A DNA stretch of 64,000 nt, taken from NCBI GenBank assembly GCA_019359615.1, contig JAHHHA010000030.1, positions 1 to 64,000 on the forward strand, given 5' to 3'. This stretch comes from Cyanosarcina radialis HA8281-LM2. GTDB lineage: Bacteria; Cyanobacteriota; Cyanobacteriia; Cyanobacteriales; CCAP-1448. This document shows, in pieces, positions 34,214-48,809 of this stretch. Within the stretch, counting starts at the first letter, position 1. Each line of letters begins with the position of its first letter. A program made the position numbers and the translations under genes. The notes under the pieces are model-generated. The model was not told where the DNA came from. It saw only the letters and a list, made by a program, of their open reading frames with translations, and made no database searches.

Positions 34214-36379
<2,166 letters not shown>

Positions 36380-36455: not shown

Positions 36456-36660
36456 GCGATCGGGTAATTTTTTTCCTTGCGCCCACTCCTATGCCCCAAG
36501 TGGCTCCGCCACTTTCCCGATTGTTTGCTCTGACCATAAGATTTCCCGCTGCTTTCGATGAAACCTTTGCTGCCAAAGGAATTTCCCTGGGTTTAGCCGT
36601 TCGATCGCCAATTTCAGAGAGTTATAACTGAATTATGCAGTTAAAAGTCGGGATTTTTTG

Positions 36661-37719
36661 ATGAGGTTTTCGTCTTTAGCTTTTTTGGCTTTCTTGCTGT
36701 CATCGCTGGAAACTTGCAGTAGCGGTGAAGTTGCTGCTATGGGTCTAGTTCGCAGCCATCGGCACTCTAATTTATTCGGAGCGATCGCTACCTCAACCCC
36801 TATTTTCAGCCTCTCCCCATCGCGCCCGATATTCAACCTAGCTCAGCAAGGCTATAGTGCGGTTCGAGGCACTAAAGTCAGCCTGATTCAACCAGCAGGT
36901 TTTACCCCAGCAGATTCTTTTTCTGGATTTCAGCAATTAGATACTGGGGCATCAATTTTGGTCGCAGAATTCCCCGCTCCTTATCCGATCGTATCTAATA
37001 GTTTTACTACTGATACTCTAAAATCGCGAGGCATGACTTTAATTTCTAAGGAAAACGTTAAAGTCGATGGATATTCCGGTCTACTAATGCAAGTCGAGCA
37101 AGTTGCTAACCAGCAAGATTTTGCTAAATTTATTTTGGTCTTTGGGGATGAAGCTGAAACAGTTTTGCTCACTGCTTCCATGCCCAAAGATTTACAAACC
37201 AGGCTTGCTCCTACTTTAAAGAAATCTTTACTAACTGCGAAATGGCAGAAAGATAAAGCTGTCGATCCGTTTGCCGATTTGCCATTTGCTATTACTAGCA
37301 CCCCAGCTTTAAAATTTAGCGATCGCTTAATTAATTGTTTGGCTTATACTCAAGATGGGACGATGCCCGTAAAATCGGCTGCCGCTCCGATGCTGGTAGC
37401 GTGTCAGTCAATTGGCTCTGCCAGAGTAAGCGATCGAGAGCAATTTGCTAAAGAACGACTGGAAAAGACGGCTCTAATTGAGAAGATCTCGATCGAATCT
37501 GGTAAAGCGATCGAGATTAATGGCATCGACGGTTACGAAATTATTGCTACTGCCAGCGACTCGGAAACTAAGGAATCAATTATTGTTTATCAAGTGTTGT
37601 TGTTCGAGCCGAATAGTTATTACATCATTCAGGGTAGAGTTGGCAGTAAATTGCGCTCGGAATATTTAGATGATTTCCAAATTATGGCAATGAGCTTTAA
37701 GAAAAAATCGAATAACTAG
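36661..37719 (+). CDS. Secreted protein of unknown function
   Basis: 352 residues with an N-terminal hydrophobic segment (FSSLAFLAFLLSSLETC) suggesting export or anchoring, then a two-part alpha/beta body (GYSAVRGTKVSLIQPAGF, LVAEFPAPYPIVS, GYSGLLMQVEQ; later NGIDGYEIIATASDSETKES, FEPNSYYIIQGRVG). The repeated pattern of a short beta strand followed by a helical region is like other cyanobacterial periplasmic or extracellular proteins of unknown role. The ATG at 36661 is chosen over a TTG next to it. It precedes the kinase-Ppx gene by 49 bases and may be cotranscribed. Confidence 0.65.
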   Translation: MRFSSLAFLAFLLSSLETCSSGEVAAMGLVRSHRHSNLFGAIATSTPIFSLSPSRPIFNLAQQGYSAVRGTKVSLIQPAGFTPADSFSGFQQLDTGASILVAEFPAPYPIVSNSFTTDTLKSRGMTLISKENVKVDGYSGLLMQVEQVANQQDFAKFILVFGDEAETVLLTASMPKDLQTRLAPTLKKSLLTAKWQKDKAVDPFADLPFAITSTPALKFSDRLINCLAYTQDGTMPVKSAAAPMLVACQSIGSARVSDREQFAKERLEKTALIEKISIESGKAIEINGIDGYEIIATASDSETKESIIVYQVLLFEPNSYYIIQGRVGSKLRSEYLDDFQIMAMSFKKKSNN

Positions 37720-37768: not shown

Positions 37769-39934
37769 ATGAGTCTGTGTATCAATCCAAACTGTAAATC
37801 TCCCAATCCTGACGACACATTATTTTGCTATAAATGTGGTTCTGAATTACTCCTAGCAGGACGATATAAAGTTGTTAAACTATTGAGCGACAAGGGCGGC
37901 TTTGCTAATACTTATGAAGTGATGCACCAAGGCGTTCCTAAAGTGATGAAGATGCTCAAGCAGCAGAGTCAAAAAGCTATGGAGCTATTTGAACGAGAGT
38001 TTGAGGTGTTAAAGCAGTCAAATCATCCCGGAATTCCTAAAGCCGAAGATTACTTTAATTTCGTTCCCAAGCACAGTCAGACCCAGACACCATTGTATTG
38101 TTTGGTGATGGAAAAGATTTTCGGCACCGACTTGGAAGAGTATATCAAGCAAACAGGCAGGCCGATCGACCAAAGATGCGCTTTAGAATGGTTATTTCAG
38201 CTAGCTCATATCCTCGAAGAAATTCATCACAAACAACTCCTGCATCGAGATATCAAACCATCAAACATTATTTTGCAACCAGACGGACAACTGGTATTAA
38301 TTGACTTTGGAGCCGTCAAACAAATTGCTAGCATTCAAGCCGGAGGACAGAATACTTGGATCTTCACCCCTGGTTATGCCGCCCCCGAGCAAGAATATGG
38401 CAGCCCAGTGGTGCAGTCTGATTTCTTTGCTCTAGGGCGCACGTTTACCTATTTACTAACGGGTAAAGAACCAAAAACGTTGGTCAATCCTAATACTAAC
38501 GAGGTCAATTGGCATCCTCATATTTCTAACGTTTCACCCATGTTAGTAGAATTTATCGATCGACTGATGGAGCATCCAGTAGAGAAACGCCCCCCCAACG
38601 CTCAGGCGATTTTAAGTCAACTGACAACTATTCAAAATACGCTCTATCCCCCCGTTCCGATTAGCGATCCGACCGCTAGCAAGTCTGCAAATCCACCTCC
38701 TTCTGGATCGAGAAACTCGTGGAAATTCATCATTCCCTTGGCACTACTCCTGCTGGGAGGGGCAGTTTGGGGCATCATGTGGTTCAGAAATCCAGCTTCG
38801 CAGTCGGCTAATAATTCTGGAACTCAGGGGGCTAATCTACCGCCGACCAATTCCGAATCTAAATGCAGCACCAGTAACTTAGTCAAGAAGTCAGGGAATC
38901 TATATGGCGTAATTGAAATCGGTAGTAAAGGAATTAAATCAGAAGTCATTCAAGAGTTAGCAACTCCCAACGAAGATGGACTGACATTAATTGCTAGAAA
39001 TGAAGAGATCGAAGATCGCAATACTGCTCCGAGGGAACCGAAAGCTCAAACCGAAACCGTCAGCGCCGTTAAGGATGTTTTCGGTGAAATTCAACAGCGA
39101 TTTCAAATTCCCTGCGAACAAATTGTTATCTACGGTAGCAGCGGTTTGGCCAAGGCTCCCCATAAAGATGCTCTAGCTAAAGATATTCAAGAGCAAACGG
39201 GAAGATCGGTTAACTTTATCTCTGATGAGGAAGAAGCAACCTTAGTTTTTGATGGCATCGTCCCTCAGTGGAGACGAAATGAAGTCGTCACGATCGATAT
39301 TGGTTCGGGTAATATTAAAGGGGCATATGTAGAAGATATTCAAACCGACAAACACGGCACATTTGCTATCGATCTAGGGACGACAGCCTTTACTGAAAAA
39401 ATCAATGCTAAACGAGGAGAAGGCAGTTTCGTCACCGCCGCTGCCAATGCCAAACGCGATCTATTAGTTCCAGAAATTCGCGAGTTTATCCAGCGCAAAC
39501 CAGCATTCCAAACCTTACCGAGAGTGTATTTAGGTGGTGGGATTTCTTGGGCGCTATTCACTCTAGTTCGCCCCTGTCAGGCAGAACAGGCAATTAAGAC
39601 TAAAGAAGAACGAGTCGCTCTTTACGGCCGAATTTATCCAGAGGATATTAACACCTTTTATAACAATGCCACGCGCGATCGCAACGCTCTGTTTCAACCC
39701 GATTTAAGTCAATGTAAAACTCCAGAGCAGCGACAGCAAGCAGAGAAAGATATAAATACGCTCAAAAGCGGAAAGGTTTTTTCTATAGATAATTTGATTG
39801 CCGGGGCTGAAATTCTCAGGGCTTTTTCCGACGAGCTAAATTTCTCTCAAAGAGAGCGAATTTTCTTCTCGCGCTACGCCAAAGATGCCCTACCCATCGG
39901 TTATCTCAAGCAACAACTCAAGAATGCTAATTGA
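37769..39934 (+). CDS. Ser/Thr kinase fused to an exopolyphosphatase-like (Ppx/GppA) domain
   Basis: 721 residues with four parts. Residues 4-23: a zinc ribbon of CX4CX10CX2C. Residues ~31-285: a protein kinase (LLSDKGGFANTYEV, VMKML, HRDIKPSN, LIDFGAVKQI, GYAAPEQ). Residues ~320-342: one membrane helix (FIIPLALLLLGGAVWGIMWF). Residues ~375-715: a Ppx/GppA-type ASKHA domain with VIEIGSKGIKSEV (phosphate 1), SDEEEATLVFDG (catalytic Glu motif), TIDIGSGNIKGAY (phosphate 2) and VYLGGGISWA (adenosine motif). The kinase faces the cytoplasm, so the second domain should face the periplasm. The pairing with ppk1 next door suggests a link to polyphosphate or phosphate state. This is inference. The ATG follows a tandem repeat. 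Confidence 0.78.
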   Translation: MSLCINPNCKSPNPDDTLFCYKCGSELLLAGRYKVVKLLSDKGGFANTYEVMHQGVPKVMKMLKQQSQKAMELFEREFEVLKQSNHPGIPKAEDYFNFVPKHSQTQTPLYCLVMEKIFGTDLEEYIKQTGRPIDQRCALEWLFQLAHILEEIHHKQLLHRDIKPSNIILQPDGQLVLIDFGAVKQIASIQAGGQNTWIFTPGYAAPEQEYGSPVVQSDFFALGRTFTYLLTGKEPKTLVNPNTNEVNWHPHISNVSPMLVEFIDRLMEHPVEKRPPNAQAILSQLTTIQNTLYPPVPISDPTASKSANPPPSGSRNSWKFIIPLALLLLGGAVWGIMWFRNPASQSANNSGTQGANLPPTNSESKCSTSNLVKKSGNLYGVIEIGSKGIKSEVIQELATPNEDGLTLIARNEEIEDRNTAPREPKAQTETVSAVKDVFGEIQQRFQIPCEQIVIYGSSGLAKAPHKDALAKDIQEQTGRSVNFISDEEEATLVFDGIVPQWRRNEVVTIDIGSGNIKGAYVEDIQTDKHGTFAIDLGTTAFTEKINAKRGEGSFVTAAANAKRDLLVPEIREFIQRKPAFQTLPRVYLGGGISWALFTLVRPCQAEQAIKTKEERVALYGRIYPEDINTFYNNATRDRNALFQPDLSQCKTPEQRQQAEKDINTLKSGKVFSIDNLIAGAEILRAFSDELNFSQRERIFFSRYAKDALPIGYLKQQLKNAN

Positions 39935-42210: not shown

Positions 42211-42911
42211 AGGATGGATTTACCTCTATGGGGGCGATCGCGCAGCGTCTCCAAAGGAGAATCATTATGCTGACACTCTATATAACTTAGCTATGACTTT
42301 AGTGTACACAGCTAAGTTCCATTTTGAGTACAATTGCTTACACAATTAAGGGAAAAATAGGAAGAATAATGGCTTCCTGGGGAGCCAGTTGTGGCGCTAT
42401 CGACTTCAGCCATCTCCACCAGGGGTTCAAAACCCCTGGCTAATAGCTCAAGTCCATTGAAATGGACTAAAGAACTAATTACCCAGAGATCTTCCAGTCC
42501 TCTTATGAAGGTTAAGAATTAAATTCGGTAATTGTGGGGTGGGACTCTTGTGGGACAGCCCAGAGGGCTATCCCACAAGAATTACCCAATTATTTTTTTA
42601 ACTTCCATTAGAGGACTTTAACTTTGAGACAGGGGTTTTGAACCCCTGTCGGATGAAGTTTTTGACCATTAAGCTGACGCATATGCAAAGGATTGCGCCC
42701 CTAATAATATATGGCCGATCGAGGTTTTTTGACCGCATAGTCCGATCGCAGACTTTAATAACTTTTTTTTCTATCTTTTGATGGAGATTGCTCTCTGTCT
42801 AGGGAAAGAACTTAGAATCTCGCCAAATACAGAATAATGAGTAACAGAAACTAGCCTAGCTTATTGCTAGAGAAATGCGACTATTGGCTAATTCACTCTC
42901 AAGGACGGTTT
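42211..42911. other. 700-bp gap rich in inverted repeats
   Basis: No gene. Hairpins: CCAGGGGTTCAAAACCCCTGG at 42419-42439, CTTGTGGGACAGCCC with GGGCTATCCCACAAG at 42547-42579, and GACAGGGGTTTTGAACCCCTGTC at 42628-42650. ATTACCCAATTATTTTTTT at about 42581 also occurs near 41427, so a ~25-bp fragment is duplicated around the response regulator gene. The promoter for the large kinase is likely in the last 100 bases. Confidence 0.5.
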
Positions 42912-45900
42912 ATGTCAACTGATCCACTCGCCATTGCTTCGGGTACTGCGGACGATACATTAGATGCCAAACAACTCCTTCAAACCCTGACGGCAGTTAA
43001 AAAGGGCGATTTCTCGGTACGGATGCCGATCGATCGCATCGGACTGGCGGGAAAAATCTCGGATACGCTCAACGATATTATCGAGACGAACGAGCGGATG
43101 GCATTGGAACTCGAACGAGTTAGTGCTGTGGTGGGCAAAGAAGGCAGAATCGACGAGCGGGCATCTGTCGGTCAGGCTGAAGGTGCTTGGAAAGCCTCGA
43201 TCGATTCAGTTAATACTCTGATTACCGATTTGGTGCAACCGACGGCGGAAACTGCGCGGGTCATTCGAGCAGTGGCTAATGGCGATTTGTCGCAAGCGAT
43301 CGCGACCGAAATTGATGGTAGACCGCTGCAAGGAGAGTTTTTGCAGATGGCGGCGATCGTCAATACGATGGTCGGTCAGCTTAATTCCTTTGCTTCCGAA
43401 GTTACCAGGGTAGCGCGGGAAGTGGGAACTGAGGGCAAATTAGGCGTGCAGGCCGACGTGAAAGAAGTGGCTGGCACTTGGAAAGATCTGACCGACTCGG
43501 TGAACTCCATGGCGGGCAATCTGACGGGGCAGGTGCGGGATATTGCCGAAGTCACCACGGCGGTAGCCAACGGGGATTTGTCGAAGAAAATTACCGTTGA
43601 TGTCAAGGGCGAGATTCTCGAACTGAAGAATACCATCAATACCATGGTCGATCGACTCAACTCCTTTGCTTCCGAAGTTACCAGGGTAGCGCGGGAAGTG
43701 GGCACTGAGGGCAAATTAGGCGTGCAGGCCGACGTGAAAGGGGTGGCTGGCACTTGGAAAGATCTGACCGACTCGGTGAACTCCATGGCAGGCAATCTGA
43801 CGGCGCAGGTGCGGAATATCGCTGAAGTGACCACGGCAGTAGCGAATGGGGATTTGTCGAAGAAGATTACCGTCGATGTCAAGGGCGAAATTCTGGAACT
43901 GAAAAATACCGTCAACACGATGGTGGATCAACTCAATTCCTTTGCCTCTGAGGTAACGCGGGTGGCGCGGGAAGTCGGCGCGGATGGCAAGTTAGGCGGT
44001 CAAGCAGAAGTTAAGGGCGTAGCCGGAACCTGGAAAGACTTGACGAACAGCGTCAATTTTATGGCGGGCAATCTGACCGCGCAGGTACGGAATATCGCCG
44101 AAGTGACCACCGCTGTAGCCAACGGAGACTTGTCGAAAAAGATCGCCGTCGATGTCAAAGGTGAGATTTTAGAACTGAAGAATACCATCAATACGATGGT
44201 CGATCGACTCAGTTCGTTTGCTTCGGAAGTCACCAGAGTTGCCCGCGAAGTGGGAACTGAAGGCAAACTGGGGGTGCAAGCTGAAGTCCGGGGAGTAGCC
44301 GGGACTTGGAAAGATTTAACCGATAACGTCAATTCGATGGCGGGGAATTTAACCGCTCAAGTGCGGAATATTGCTGAAGTTTCCACCGCGATCGCTAATG
44401 GCGATTTGTCAAAGAAAATTACGGTACAGGTGAAAGGCGAAATTTTAGAGCTAAAAAATACCATCAATATTATGGTGGATCAGCTTAGCTCCTTTGCCTC
44501 TGAGGTGACGCGGGTAGCGCGAGATGTGGGTGCAGAAGGCAAGTTGGGAGTGCAAGCGGATGTTAAAGGCGTGGCTGGAACCTGGAAAGACTTGACCGAT
44601 AGCGTCAACTTCATGGCGGGCAACCTGACGGCGCAGGTGCGGAATATCGCCGAAGTGACGACAGCAGTGGCGAATGGCAATCTCTCGAAGAAAATCACTG
44701 TGGATGTGAAGGGAGAGATTCTGGAACTGAAGAATACGATTAACACCATGGTGGATCAGCTTAACTCCTTTGCTTCCGAGGTGACGCGGGTGGCGCGAGA
44801 AGTGGGTACCGAAGGCAAACTGGGCGTGCAAGCCCAAGTTCAGGGAGGAGCAGGCACTTGGAAAGATTTAACCGATAGCGTGAACTTCATGGCAGGGAGC
44901 TTGACGGCTCAGGTGCGAAATATTGCTGACGTGACCACGGCAGTAGCCAACGGGGATTTGTCGAAGAAGATTACGGTGGATGTCAAGGGTGAGATCCAGG
45001 AACTGAAGAATACGATCAATACGATGGTGGATCAGCTTAACTCCTTTGCCTCGGAGGTAACGCGGGTGGCGCGAGAAGTTGGTACCGAAGGCAAACTGGG
45101 AGTACAAGCTTACGTCAGTGGCGTTGGCGGAACCTGGAAAGACCTGACCGACAACGTAAATTCCATGGCGGACAATCTAACGGCACAGGTGCGGGGAATT
45201 GCCGAAGTCACCAAAGCAGTTGCTACTGGCGATTTGTCGAAGAAGATTACCGTCGATGTGAAGGGCGAAATTCTCGATCTAAAAAACACCATTAACACGA
45301 TGGTCGATCGGCTTAGCTCCTTTGCTTCTGAGGTGACGCGGGTAGCGCGAGAAGTCGGCACTGAAGGGAAACTGGGAGGACAGGCCCAAGTGGTGGGGGT
45401 AGCAGGAACCTGGAAGGACTTGACCGATAGCGTCAATTCGATGGCGGGGAACCTAACAGTCCAGGTGCGGGGCATTGCTAAAGTCGTGACTGCCGTTGCC
45501 AATGGCGATTTGAAACGCAAACTGACGTTGGAAGCCAAGGGTGAAATTGAAACCCTGGCAGACACGATTAACTCAACGATCGACACGCTAGCTACCTTTG
45601 CCGATCAGGTGAGTACCGTGGCGCGGGAAGTGGGCATCGAAGGGAAACTGGGCGGACAAGCGAAGGTGCCGGGGGCGGCGGGAACCTGGAGAGATTTGAC
45701 CGATAACGTCAACGAACTGGCAGCTACCCTCACCACCCAACTGCGGGCGATCGCAGAAGTGGCGATCGCAGTCACCAAGGGCGATCTGACCAGATCGATC
45801 GCTGTAGAAGCCGAGGGCGAAGTGGCCATCTTGAAAGACAACATCAACCAGATGATTGCCAACCTGCGGGAAACCACCCAGAAAAACACCGAGCAAGACT

Positions 45901-48809
45901 GGCTCAAGACCAACCTGGCGAAATTTACTCGGATGTTGCAGGGACAGCGGGCGCTGGAAACCGTCTCTAAATTAATCCTCTCGGAACTCGCGCCACTGGT
46001 GTTTGCCCAGCATGGAGCCTTTTACCTGATCGAGGGTACAGACACGCCTAACCCCTACCTGAAGCTGCTCAGTACCTATGCCTACCGAGAGCGGAAACAC
46101 CTAGCCAACCGCTTCTATTTGGGTGAAGGATTGGTCGGCCAGTGCGCCTTGGAAAAAGAGCGGATTCTGCTGTCGGAAGTTCCGCCCGACTACATCAAGA
46201 TTAGTTCGGGCTTGGGCGAAGCCTCACCGCTGAATGTGGTCGTACTGCCAGTGCTGTTTGAAGGACAGGTAACGGCAGCGATCGAACTGGCATCCTTCCA
46301 GCGGTTTAACGATATTCACCTGATGTTTTTAGATCAATTAACCGAAAGTATCGCGATCGTCCTCAATACTATCGCTGCTAGCACGCGGACGGAAGAGTTG
46401 CTGGCGCAATCCCAATCGCTAGCAGAAGAATTGCAAAGCCAGCAAACGGAACTGACAGAAACCAACAAACGCCTAGAGCAACAAGCCCAATCGCTCAAAG
46501 CTTCGGAAGAACTGCTGAAAAACCAGCAGGAACAGTTGCAACGCACCAACGCCGAACTACAAGAAAAAGCCGAATTACTCGCCTTGCAAAATCAGGAAGT
46601 CGAACAGAAAAATCACGAGATCGAGCAAGCGCGGCGATCGGTGGAAGATAAAGCGGCCCAACTGGCCCTAACTTCCCGGTATAAATCGCAATTTTTGGCG
46701 AATATGTCCCACGAGTTGCGGACTCCCCTCAACAGCCTGCTGATTCTCGCCCGGATGCTCACCGACAATCCGGCGGGAAATTTAACGCCTCAACAAATTG
46801 AATACTGCCGCACGATTCATACGGCGGGTACGGATTTGCTGGGACTGATTAACGATATTTTAGACTTAGCCAAAATTGAATCTGGCACCCTCTCGGTTGA
46901 GGTCGAGCAGGTACTATTTACCGAATTGCGGGACCAACTCGATCGCACCTTCCGACAAATTGCCCAAGATAAGGGGCTGCGGTTTAGAATTACGCTCGAT
47001 CGACAGTTGCCCCGCGCGATGGTGACGGATGGCAAGCGTTTGCAACAAATCCTCAAAAATCTGCTCTCTAATGCCTTCAAATTTACCGAACAAGGGCAGG
47101 TAAGCCTCGAAATCGCTGCCCTGATTTGGCAAGGCAACCCTGGCGAAAATTGGCTCGGTCGCGACGGGATGCTGATTAGCTTTGCCGTCACCGATACTGG
47201 CATCGGCATTACCCCAGAGAAGCAGCAGATCGTGTTTGAAGCCTTCCAACAAGCAGACGGCACCACCAGTCGTCGATATGGCGGCACGGGCTTAGGCTTA
47301 TCCATCAGTCGAGAAATCGCCCATCTCTTAGGCGGTGAAATTCGCTTGGTCAGTCAGGTGGGAGCAGGCAGCACGTTTACGCTCTATTTGCCGCTCACTT
47401 ATCAGCCACCCGTAAGTGAAGACGATCGGCCCAACAGTCATCCAGCCGATAACGCTCCGATGCCTGAAATGCCCTCACTTCAGTCATGGCTCCGATCGAC
47501 CGATAGCGATCCACCTGAGTTGTCTGAGGCTTTGCGGCTCCGTTCGTCCACCTTACTAGAGGCGGAAGAAATCGAAGACGATCGAGCGGCAATTCAACCA
47601 GGCGATCGAGTGATGTTGATTATTGAAGACGATCGCCACTTCGCCCGCATCCTACTAGATTTGGTCCGCCAGCGAAACTTCAAAGGTCTGGTGGCTCAAC
47701 AAGGCGATCTGGGCTTGACTTTGGCTCAAGAATTTCAACCGACGGCAATTTTGCTCGATATTCGCCTGCCCGTGCTGAACGGCTGGCAGGTACTCGATCG
47801 ACTCAAACACGATGCCAGAACCAGGCATATTCCCGTCCATATCTTCACCGTGGAGTCAGGCCGACAGCGGAGTTTCCAAACCGGGGCGTTCTCCTATCAG
47901 CAAAAACCGATTAGTAACGAAGCCTTGGAAACAGATCTCAACGAGTTGGAAGGCTTTATCGATCGCCCCCTCAAACAGCTTCTGCTCGTCACCGCCAGCG
48001 AAGCCAAAAGCAGTAGCCTTCTAGAGTTGCTCGATGGCGATGATGTTGGCTGTACGAGGGTTAACACTGGGGCAGATGCTTTGCAAGCTTTGCAAGAGAA
48101 TCGCTTTGACTGCGTAATTATGGATATGCGTCTCCCCGACCTGACAGGATTGGAACTGATCCAGCAAATTCGCCAACAAATAGAATCGCGCCGCTTGCCG
48201 ATTATTATCGATGGCGATTCGGATTTGACACCAGATGAAAGACGACAGATCCATCAATTTTCGGAAACATTACTGTTCAAGGATGTATCCTCGATCGAAC
48301 GGTTGTTGGATGAAACTACTCTTTATTTGCATCGGGCCGAAGCGCGGTTGCCCGCCCGCCAGCAGCAGATTTTAGAGCGATTGCGGAAATCCGATCCCGT
48401 GCTAGCCCACAAGCGGGTGTTAATCGTTGACGATGACATTCGCAATATCTTCGCTCTCACCAGTTTGCTGGAACAGCACCAGATGCAGGTCATCTATGCC
48501 GAAAACGGCAGAGATGCGATTACCATGTTGCACGAGCATCCAGATACAAATATCGTCTTGATGGACGTAATGATGCCCGAAATGGACGGCTACGAAACCA
48601 TCCGCGCCATTCGCCAACATCCGCAGTGGCAATCTTTGCCGATTATCGCCCTCACCGCCAAAGCCATGAAAGGCGATCGCGAAAAATGTCTGGCAGCAGG
48701 AGCCTCCGACTACATTTCTAAGCCCGTCGATATCGAACAGTTGCTCTCTCTGCTGCGGGTTTGGCTTTATCCCAGTCCCCAAGCTCTCATTTCGGGAGGT
48801 GAAAGTTAA
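42912..48809 (+). CDS. Poly-HAMP hybrid histidine kinase
   Basis: 1965 residues with no membrane segment. Residues ~20-1000 are stacked HAMP units: a first divergent pair and nine copies of a 92-residue repeat, each with [31 protein letters not shown] and [15 protein letters not shown]. Then a GAF domain (~1013-1155), a coiled coil, HisKA ([14 protein letters not shown]), HATPase ([27 protein letters not shown]) and three receiver domains. The second receiver lacks the acidic start pair. This resembles fungal Nik1-type osmotic kinases. The ATG at 42912 has AGGA upstream. A two-component cytoplasmic sensor, probably of a physical or redox cue; signal unknown. Confidence 0.88.
43370..45860 (+). 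repeat. 276-bp coding repeat array (HAMP units)
   Basis: The DNA of the HAMP stack repeats every 276 bp, in nine recognisable copies, with near-identical blocks such as CTCCTTTGCTTCCGA. The copies are more alike in the middle than at the ends. This can cause recombination and copy number changes in the gene. Confidence 0.85.

Follow-up and report, generated by a model that had tools for sequence, protein, structure and literature searches.

A membrane-bound Ser/Thr kinase fused to a Ppx/GppA-derived, probably extracytoplasmic domain in a few cyanobacteria

The fusion gene and its surroundings

In the window (the whole 64,000-nucleotide stretch of the Cyanosarcina radialis HA8281-LM2 genome that was analysed), one gene encodes an N-terminal zinc ribbon, a Hanks-type Ser/Thr kinase, one membrane helix and an ASKHA domain of the Ppx/GppA type (Table 1), and, judged by its sequence matches, this architecture is real. 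The earlier note had read the same arrangement of a zinc ribbon, a full kinase with HRDIKPSN and DFG, one helix and an ASKHA domain, which Pfam, NCBIfam and the key residues confirmed. The Pkinase profile (PF00069) matched residues 42–280 (E 9.7e-31) and the profile of the cyanobacterial 4-Cys kinase prefix (NF045510) scored 30.2 bits against a cut-off of 24; the four prefix cysteines (C4, C9, C20 and C23) are invariant across the six fusion orthologues. With the kinase fold, the VAIK Lys (K61), the alphaC Glu (E77), HRD and DFG all intact and the prefix present, the protein belongs among the Hanks-type 4-Cys-prefix kinases. The hydrophobic helix is the sole candidate membrane segment of the protein, and each fusion orthologue likewise has one.

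Table 1. Features of the fusion gene, two genes upstream of it in the window and two orthologues with an altered kinase motif
Feature	Position	Strand	Evidence or remark
ppk1 (polyphosphate kinase 1)	34214..36379	-	Pfam, NCBIfam; two genes from the fusion, divergent
353-aa gene, secreted-looking, weak PsbP_2 similarity	36658..37719	+	49 bp upstream of the fusion
Complete fusion gene, 721 aa, single ORF	37769..39934	+	ORF list; Pfam, NCBIfam
Zinc ribbon / 4-Cys kinase prefix, residues 3-27 (C4, C9, C20, C23)	37775..37849	+	NF045510
Ser/Thr kinase domain, residues 30-290 (K61, E77, HRDIKPSN 159-166, DFG 179-181)	37856..38638	+	PF00069, key residues
Single membrane helix, about residues 321-339	38729..38785	+	Hydropathy 2.13
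Ppx/GppA-like ASKHA lobe 1, residues 366-521	38864..39331	+	PF02541, hhalign, PDB sequence matches
Phosphate-1 loop EIGSKGIK, E383-K390	38915..38938	+	Asp7 of Deinococcus PPX (DrPPX) is Glu here, His14 is Lys
SDEEEA, residues 485-490	39221..39238	+	E489 corresponds to catalytic Glu114 of DrPPX
Phosphate-2 loop DIGSGNIK, residues 510-517	39296..39319	+	D136 corresponds to D510; E143 replaced by K517
C-terminal half of the domain, residues 522-721	39332..39931	+	Presumed ASKHA lobe 2, undetectable by sequence
Fusion orthologue, kinase GFG (G338)	L005 / L034:9406-11565		Ppx-like domain well conserved
Fusion orthologue, kinase GFG (G655)	L038 / L042:9801-11966		Ppx-like domain well conserved

The gene directly upstream is possibly co-transcribed with the fusion, although no counterpart was found beside the homologue in genome G390 and it is not a conserved neighbour. 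The nearby ppk1 suggested a polyphosphate operon, an idea that was rejected because ppk1 was not adjacent to the homologue in any of the five neighbourhoods read (G390, G101, G338, G655 and G817); a ppk2 gene about 7 kb from the fusion gene of G338 was taken as coincidence. A Pho-box search returned three matches in the window, fewer than the 5.8 that chance would give, and none near the fusion gene. Polyphosphate is therefore a possible ligand but not a supported one. A defence-system reading was also set aside, as the PADLOC match (PD-T4-6) arose through the kinase domain only and is uninformative on function. Further downstream (42864-48809, + strand) lies a gene for a hybrid histidine kinase of 1981 residues, which combines ten serial HAMP matches with GAF, HisKA and HATPase domains and three receivers.

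Origin and active-site residues of the C-terminal domain

A Ppx-GppA profile (PF02541) matched residues 421–551 of the protein (E 7.6e-10; 39.1 bits against a curated cut-off of 27), and a cyanobacterial Ppx profile matched the domain at E 4.9e-9, whereas no value better than E 0.5 came from 1000 shuffled versions of the domain. When a profile of the C-terminal domain was compared with PDB sequences, solely Ppx/GppA proteins were matched beyond chance (best E 5.6e-8). PF02541 also matched six of the seven aligned homologues at E values up to 1, with the Azospirillum protein described below scoring 20.1 bits, under the cut-off. These results bear out the Ppx/GppA origin proposed in the earlier note and indicate that lobe 1 is homologous to the Ppx/GppA branch of the ASKHA fold. 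The alignment with cyanobacterial Ppx by hhalign (probability 96.8%, ~145 columns) was confined to lobe 1 (about residues 376–525). For lobe 2 against Ppx lobe 2, the hhalign probability was 0.2%, no better than with shuffled profiles, the profiles here being thin; the C-terminal half (residues 522–721) is nevertheless kept together with lobe 1 in all full-length homologues. The claim that all four Ppx/GppA signature regions are present was thus overstated: lobe 1 aligns and the catalytic Glu is in place, but no similarity was detected for lobe 2, and residues that solved Ppx proteins need for hydrolysis are replaced. Structure models of the window protein and of a Chamaesiphon fragment were poor (mean pLDDT 43 and 51), and two further comparisons were left out as evidence: the ten best Foldseek matches were all Ppx/GppA proteins, but at E 0.04 or worse, and VIA-align gave unspecific matches only. 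The same genome (G000) also encodes an ordinary cytoplasmic-type Ppx of 583 residues.

Residues were mapped onto Deinococcus PPX (DrPPX), for which they have been tested by mutation (PMC11234463). Both E114 and D136 of DrPPX are retained, as E489 and D510, and are invariant across nine homologues. D7, R86 and E143 are replaced by E383, A461 and K517 in all six fusions, and the counterparts of E383 and K517 are shared by two stand-alone relatives as well; H14 is replaced by Lys in the window domain, which keeps the charge. In DrPPX, the E143A substitution lowers kcat/Km from 2.28 to 0.04, and D7A and E143A each leave about 2% of kcat/Km (PMC11234463), and work on mycobacterial PPX implicates an Arg at the R86 position in hydrolysis (PMC3411833). 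Given the replacements at these three catalytic positions, efficient hydrolysis by the usual Ppx mechanism would be unlikely for the window domain, and because D7, R86 and E143 are not kept, we describe it as Ppx/GppA-derived rather than as a Ppx/GppA phosphatase. Invariance among the nine homologues is concentrated in the loops E-x-G-x-x-G-x-K and DIGSGNxK (E383, G388, K390, E489, D510 and K517 are the same in all nine), and since the invariant residues lie mainly in two phosphate loops, a phosphorylated compound appears the likeliest input of the domain.

Relatives, side of the membrane and kinase divergence

A search for the same fusion across some 870 cyanobacterial genomes, as the earlier note had proposed, found it complete in five genomes besides that of the window (G390, G101, G338, G655 and G817). 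In addition, the copy in G839 is membrane-anchored but lacks the kinase and is broken at its 3' end, and Chamaesiphon polymorphus has a fragment on a short contig. The domain is consequently rare and patchy in cyanobacteria (about 8 of ~870 genomes), even inside one genus, and searches of viral contigs and phages found no relative of it. Outside the fusions, plasmid p4 of Azospirillum lipoferum 4B encodes a separate 377-aa protein with a signal-peptide-like start (35% identity over 97% of the query), whose gene is separated by 59 bp from the preceding gene, which encodes a transmembrane Ser/Thr kinase. The two genes belong to a same-strand run that also comprises two FHA genes, two PP2C genes, a trypsin-FHA gene and an FHA-kinase-DUF805 gene; the surrounding region (L048:1-9020), with OmpA-like and DUF4384 genes upstream, has the look of a putative envelope signalling cluster. 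The second stand-alone relative, on a Bacteroidota-like contig in bin G619, consists of a signal peptide, TPR repeats and the Ppx-like domain. That contig (L044, contig C175) carries Bacteroidota-type genes within a cyanobacterial bin and is probably contamination. In a tree of lobe 1, a branch with support 100/99 separated all nine homologues from cyanobacterial Ppx, although the Azospirillum and Bacteroidota-like sequences form very long branches whose placement is unsure. Taken together, the relatives suggest a rare extracytoplasmic branch of the Ppx/GppA family, partly tied to protein kinases.

Charges flanking the helix gave a weak signal of sidedness, the positive charge after it being no higher than that before it. 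Together with the signal-peptide-like N-termini of both stand-alone relatives, the single helix and the four cysteines of the anchored forms, it argues that the Ppx-like domain is most probably on the outer side of the membrane, as the earlier note had placed it, since the kinase requires cytoplasmic ATP and only one helix crosses between the two. Exactly four cysteines follow the helix at fixed positions in all six fusions, the same four positions are Cys in G839, and none of them is Cys in the two stand-alone forms. Strands 1 and 4 of an ASKHA lobe are adjacent. As C366 precedes strand 1 and C449 precedes strand 4, C366 and C449 could pair, and C603 with C649 would be the second putative disulfide.

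The kinase appears to be an ordinary member of a series with swapped C-terminal domains. Queried with this kinase domain, the G000 genome gave 62 matches (E 1e-10 or better), and its set of Ser/Thr kinases is unusually large; in the nearest paralogue (52% identical), WD40 repeats take the place of the Ppx-like domain; membership of such a series makes the C-terminal domain best read as a sensor. In the G338 and G655 orthologues, the Asp of DFG is replaced by Gly (GFG), and these two are likely pseudokinases. Within their clade, dN/dS was 0.40–0.49 for the kinase versus 0.14–0.21 for the Ppx-like domain, which across the fusions ranged from 0.09 to 0.21. With the DFG Asp lost and the domain still constrained, the role of the domain in these two genomes would be independent of kinase catalysis, and it perhaps acts through a pseudokinase scaffold or by itself. 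Directly downstream of the fusion in both genomes is a conserved gene whose 223-aa product has a hydrophobic segment at its N-terminus (L034:8485-9156 and L042:8849-9520).

Interpretation and comparison with known systems

The domains, the homology of lobe 1, the replaced residues and the recurrence of the fusion are read from sequence, and from them we infer the following arrangement. The protein would be a single-pass receptor kinase, its zinc ribbon and Hanks-type kinase in the cytoplasm and its Ppx/GppA-derived domain in the periplasm (or thylakoid lumen), where two disulfides probably stabilise it. A phosphorylated ligand would be bound in the cleft between the two phosphate loops, most or all of the hydrolytic power having probably been lost, and closure of the lobes on the ligand may alter the membrane helix or the dimer state and, through it, the state of the kinase. 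We regard this reading, in which a Ppx-derived module binds a phosphorylated ligand with probably little or no hydrolysis, as about evenly balanced between right and wrong. What counts against it is that G338 and G655 lack the DFG Asp, so that sensing there cannot run solely through kinase catalysis, along with the poor structure models, the unassigned lobe 2 and the weakness of the charge signal. The earlier proposal that the domain senses extracytoplasmic polyphosphate or another phosphoanhydride and controls the kinase keeps its extracytoplasmic siting, whereas the substitutions disfavour hydrolysis and ppk1 is not a conserved neighbour. A broader form of the idea is put forward tentatively and seems doubtful: transmembrane kinases would have an extracytoplasmic Ppx/GppA branch as their ligand-binding half, fused in cyanobacteria and secreted as its own protein in Azospirillum, and this half would sense polyphosphate or another phosphoanhydride beyond the cell membrane.

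A dead kinase beside a constrained domain is the best argument for readings that give the domain a function of its own, as an enzyme or as a binding module. It is conceivable, if unlikely, that the domain would be an active extracytoplasmic exopolyphosphatase or nucleotide phosphohydrolase of altered chemistry, whose activity the tethered kinase reports or controls: E489 and D510 are kept, Glu in place of the Mg-binding Asp retains an acid, purifying selection on the domain persists where the kinase is dead, and secreted forms exist that have no kinase in the same protein. Against this enzyme stand Lys for E143 and Ala for R86 in every fusion, the small residual activity of DrPPX D7A and E143A noted above and the absence here of the further C-terminal domain that long Ppx proteins have beyond their ASKHA part. 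The lost catalytic residues would suit instead a protein- or envelope-binding module (for the cell wall, a secreted partner or another membrane protein) in which the ASKHA loops are merely structural, as would the many envelope and phospho-binding proteins encoded around the Azospirillum gene (OmpA-like, DUF4384, FHA and trypsin-FHA), the TPR repeats joined to the domain in the Bacteroidota-like relative and the retention of the domain in dead-kinase orthologues. However, invariance is centred on the phosphate loops, as a retained ligand site predicts, and we consider such a module distinctly unlikely.

It would be more surprising still if the Ppx-like domain were cytoplasmic, because the segment does not cross the membrane or because the topology is reversed, with the kinase coupled to cytoplasmic polyphosphate or pppGpp. 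The weak asymmetry of the flanking positive charges, the cytoplasmic work of known Ppx/GppA proteins and the ppk1 gene in the window would fit this placement, but the signal-peptide-like starts of the stand-alone relatives, the need of the kinase for cytoplasmic ATP with a single helix before the domain, the conservation of the four cysteines in anchored forms only and the unconserved adjacency of ppk1 make it improbable. That the fusion is decaying or accidental and has no function is the reading to which we give least credence: six complete fusions with a constrained Ppx-like domain and the independent linkage to a kinase gene in Azospirillum outweigh the patchy occurrence, the kinase decay in two orthologues and the apparently broken copies in Chamaesiphon and G839. 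The receptor reading is the preferred explanation of the locus.

A 2007 survey of cyanobacterial Ser/Thr kinases listed 14 additional domain types, with Ppx/GppA not among them (PMC2176072), and the open-access papers searched described neither the fusion nor secreted Ppx/GppA proteins, which is a weak negative. As both Pfam domains score above cut-off, domain databases probably already show the architecture itself, whereas its meaning, its extracytoplasmic setting and its link to a separate secreted form appear to be undescribed. If the receptor reading is correct, a fold known for cleaving intracellular polyphosphate and pppGpp would have crossed to the other side of the membrane to serve as a kinase sensor; bacteria would then have a receptor for extracellular phosphorylated compounds, and there would be a first clue to the input of such a kinase. 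Even the cautious reading adds an undescribed type of sensor for Hanks-type kinases and an extracytoplasmic branch of Ppx/GppA.

Among known systems, the GDA1/CD39 ecto-apyrases have the ASKHA fold and hydrolyse phosphoanhydrides outside the cytoplasm, but they form a separate ASKHA family to which the window domain had no match in any search. With Ppx/GppA proteins (PF02541; E. coli Ppx and GppA, Aquifex Ppx/GppA and Deinococcus PPX), the window family shares lobe 1, the catalytic Glu, the phosphate-2 Asp and the order of the loops, whereas it differs in its membrane anchor or signal peptide, in the replacement of E143, R86 and D7, in a lobe 2 that is unrecognisable in the window domain and in having no C-terminal HD-like domain. 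The predicted layout of a cytoplasmic kinase, one membrane helix and an extracytoplasmic C-terminal sensor resembles that of the PknB/PASTA receptor kinases, although the sensor here would be a Ppx/GppA-derived ASKHA domain and Pfam gave no PASTA match. The cyanobacterial 4-Cys-prefix Hanks-type kinases, with WD40, pentapeptide, TPR, DUF323, CHASE2 and other domains, have in common with the window protein the N-terminal zinc ribbon and kinase followed by a swapped C-terminal domain, and the window protein is set apart from them by the Ppx/GppA-like nature of the domain that has been added.
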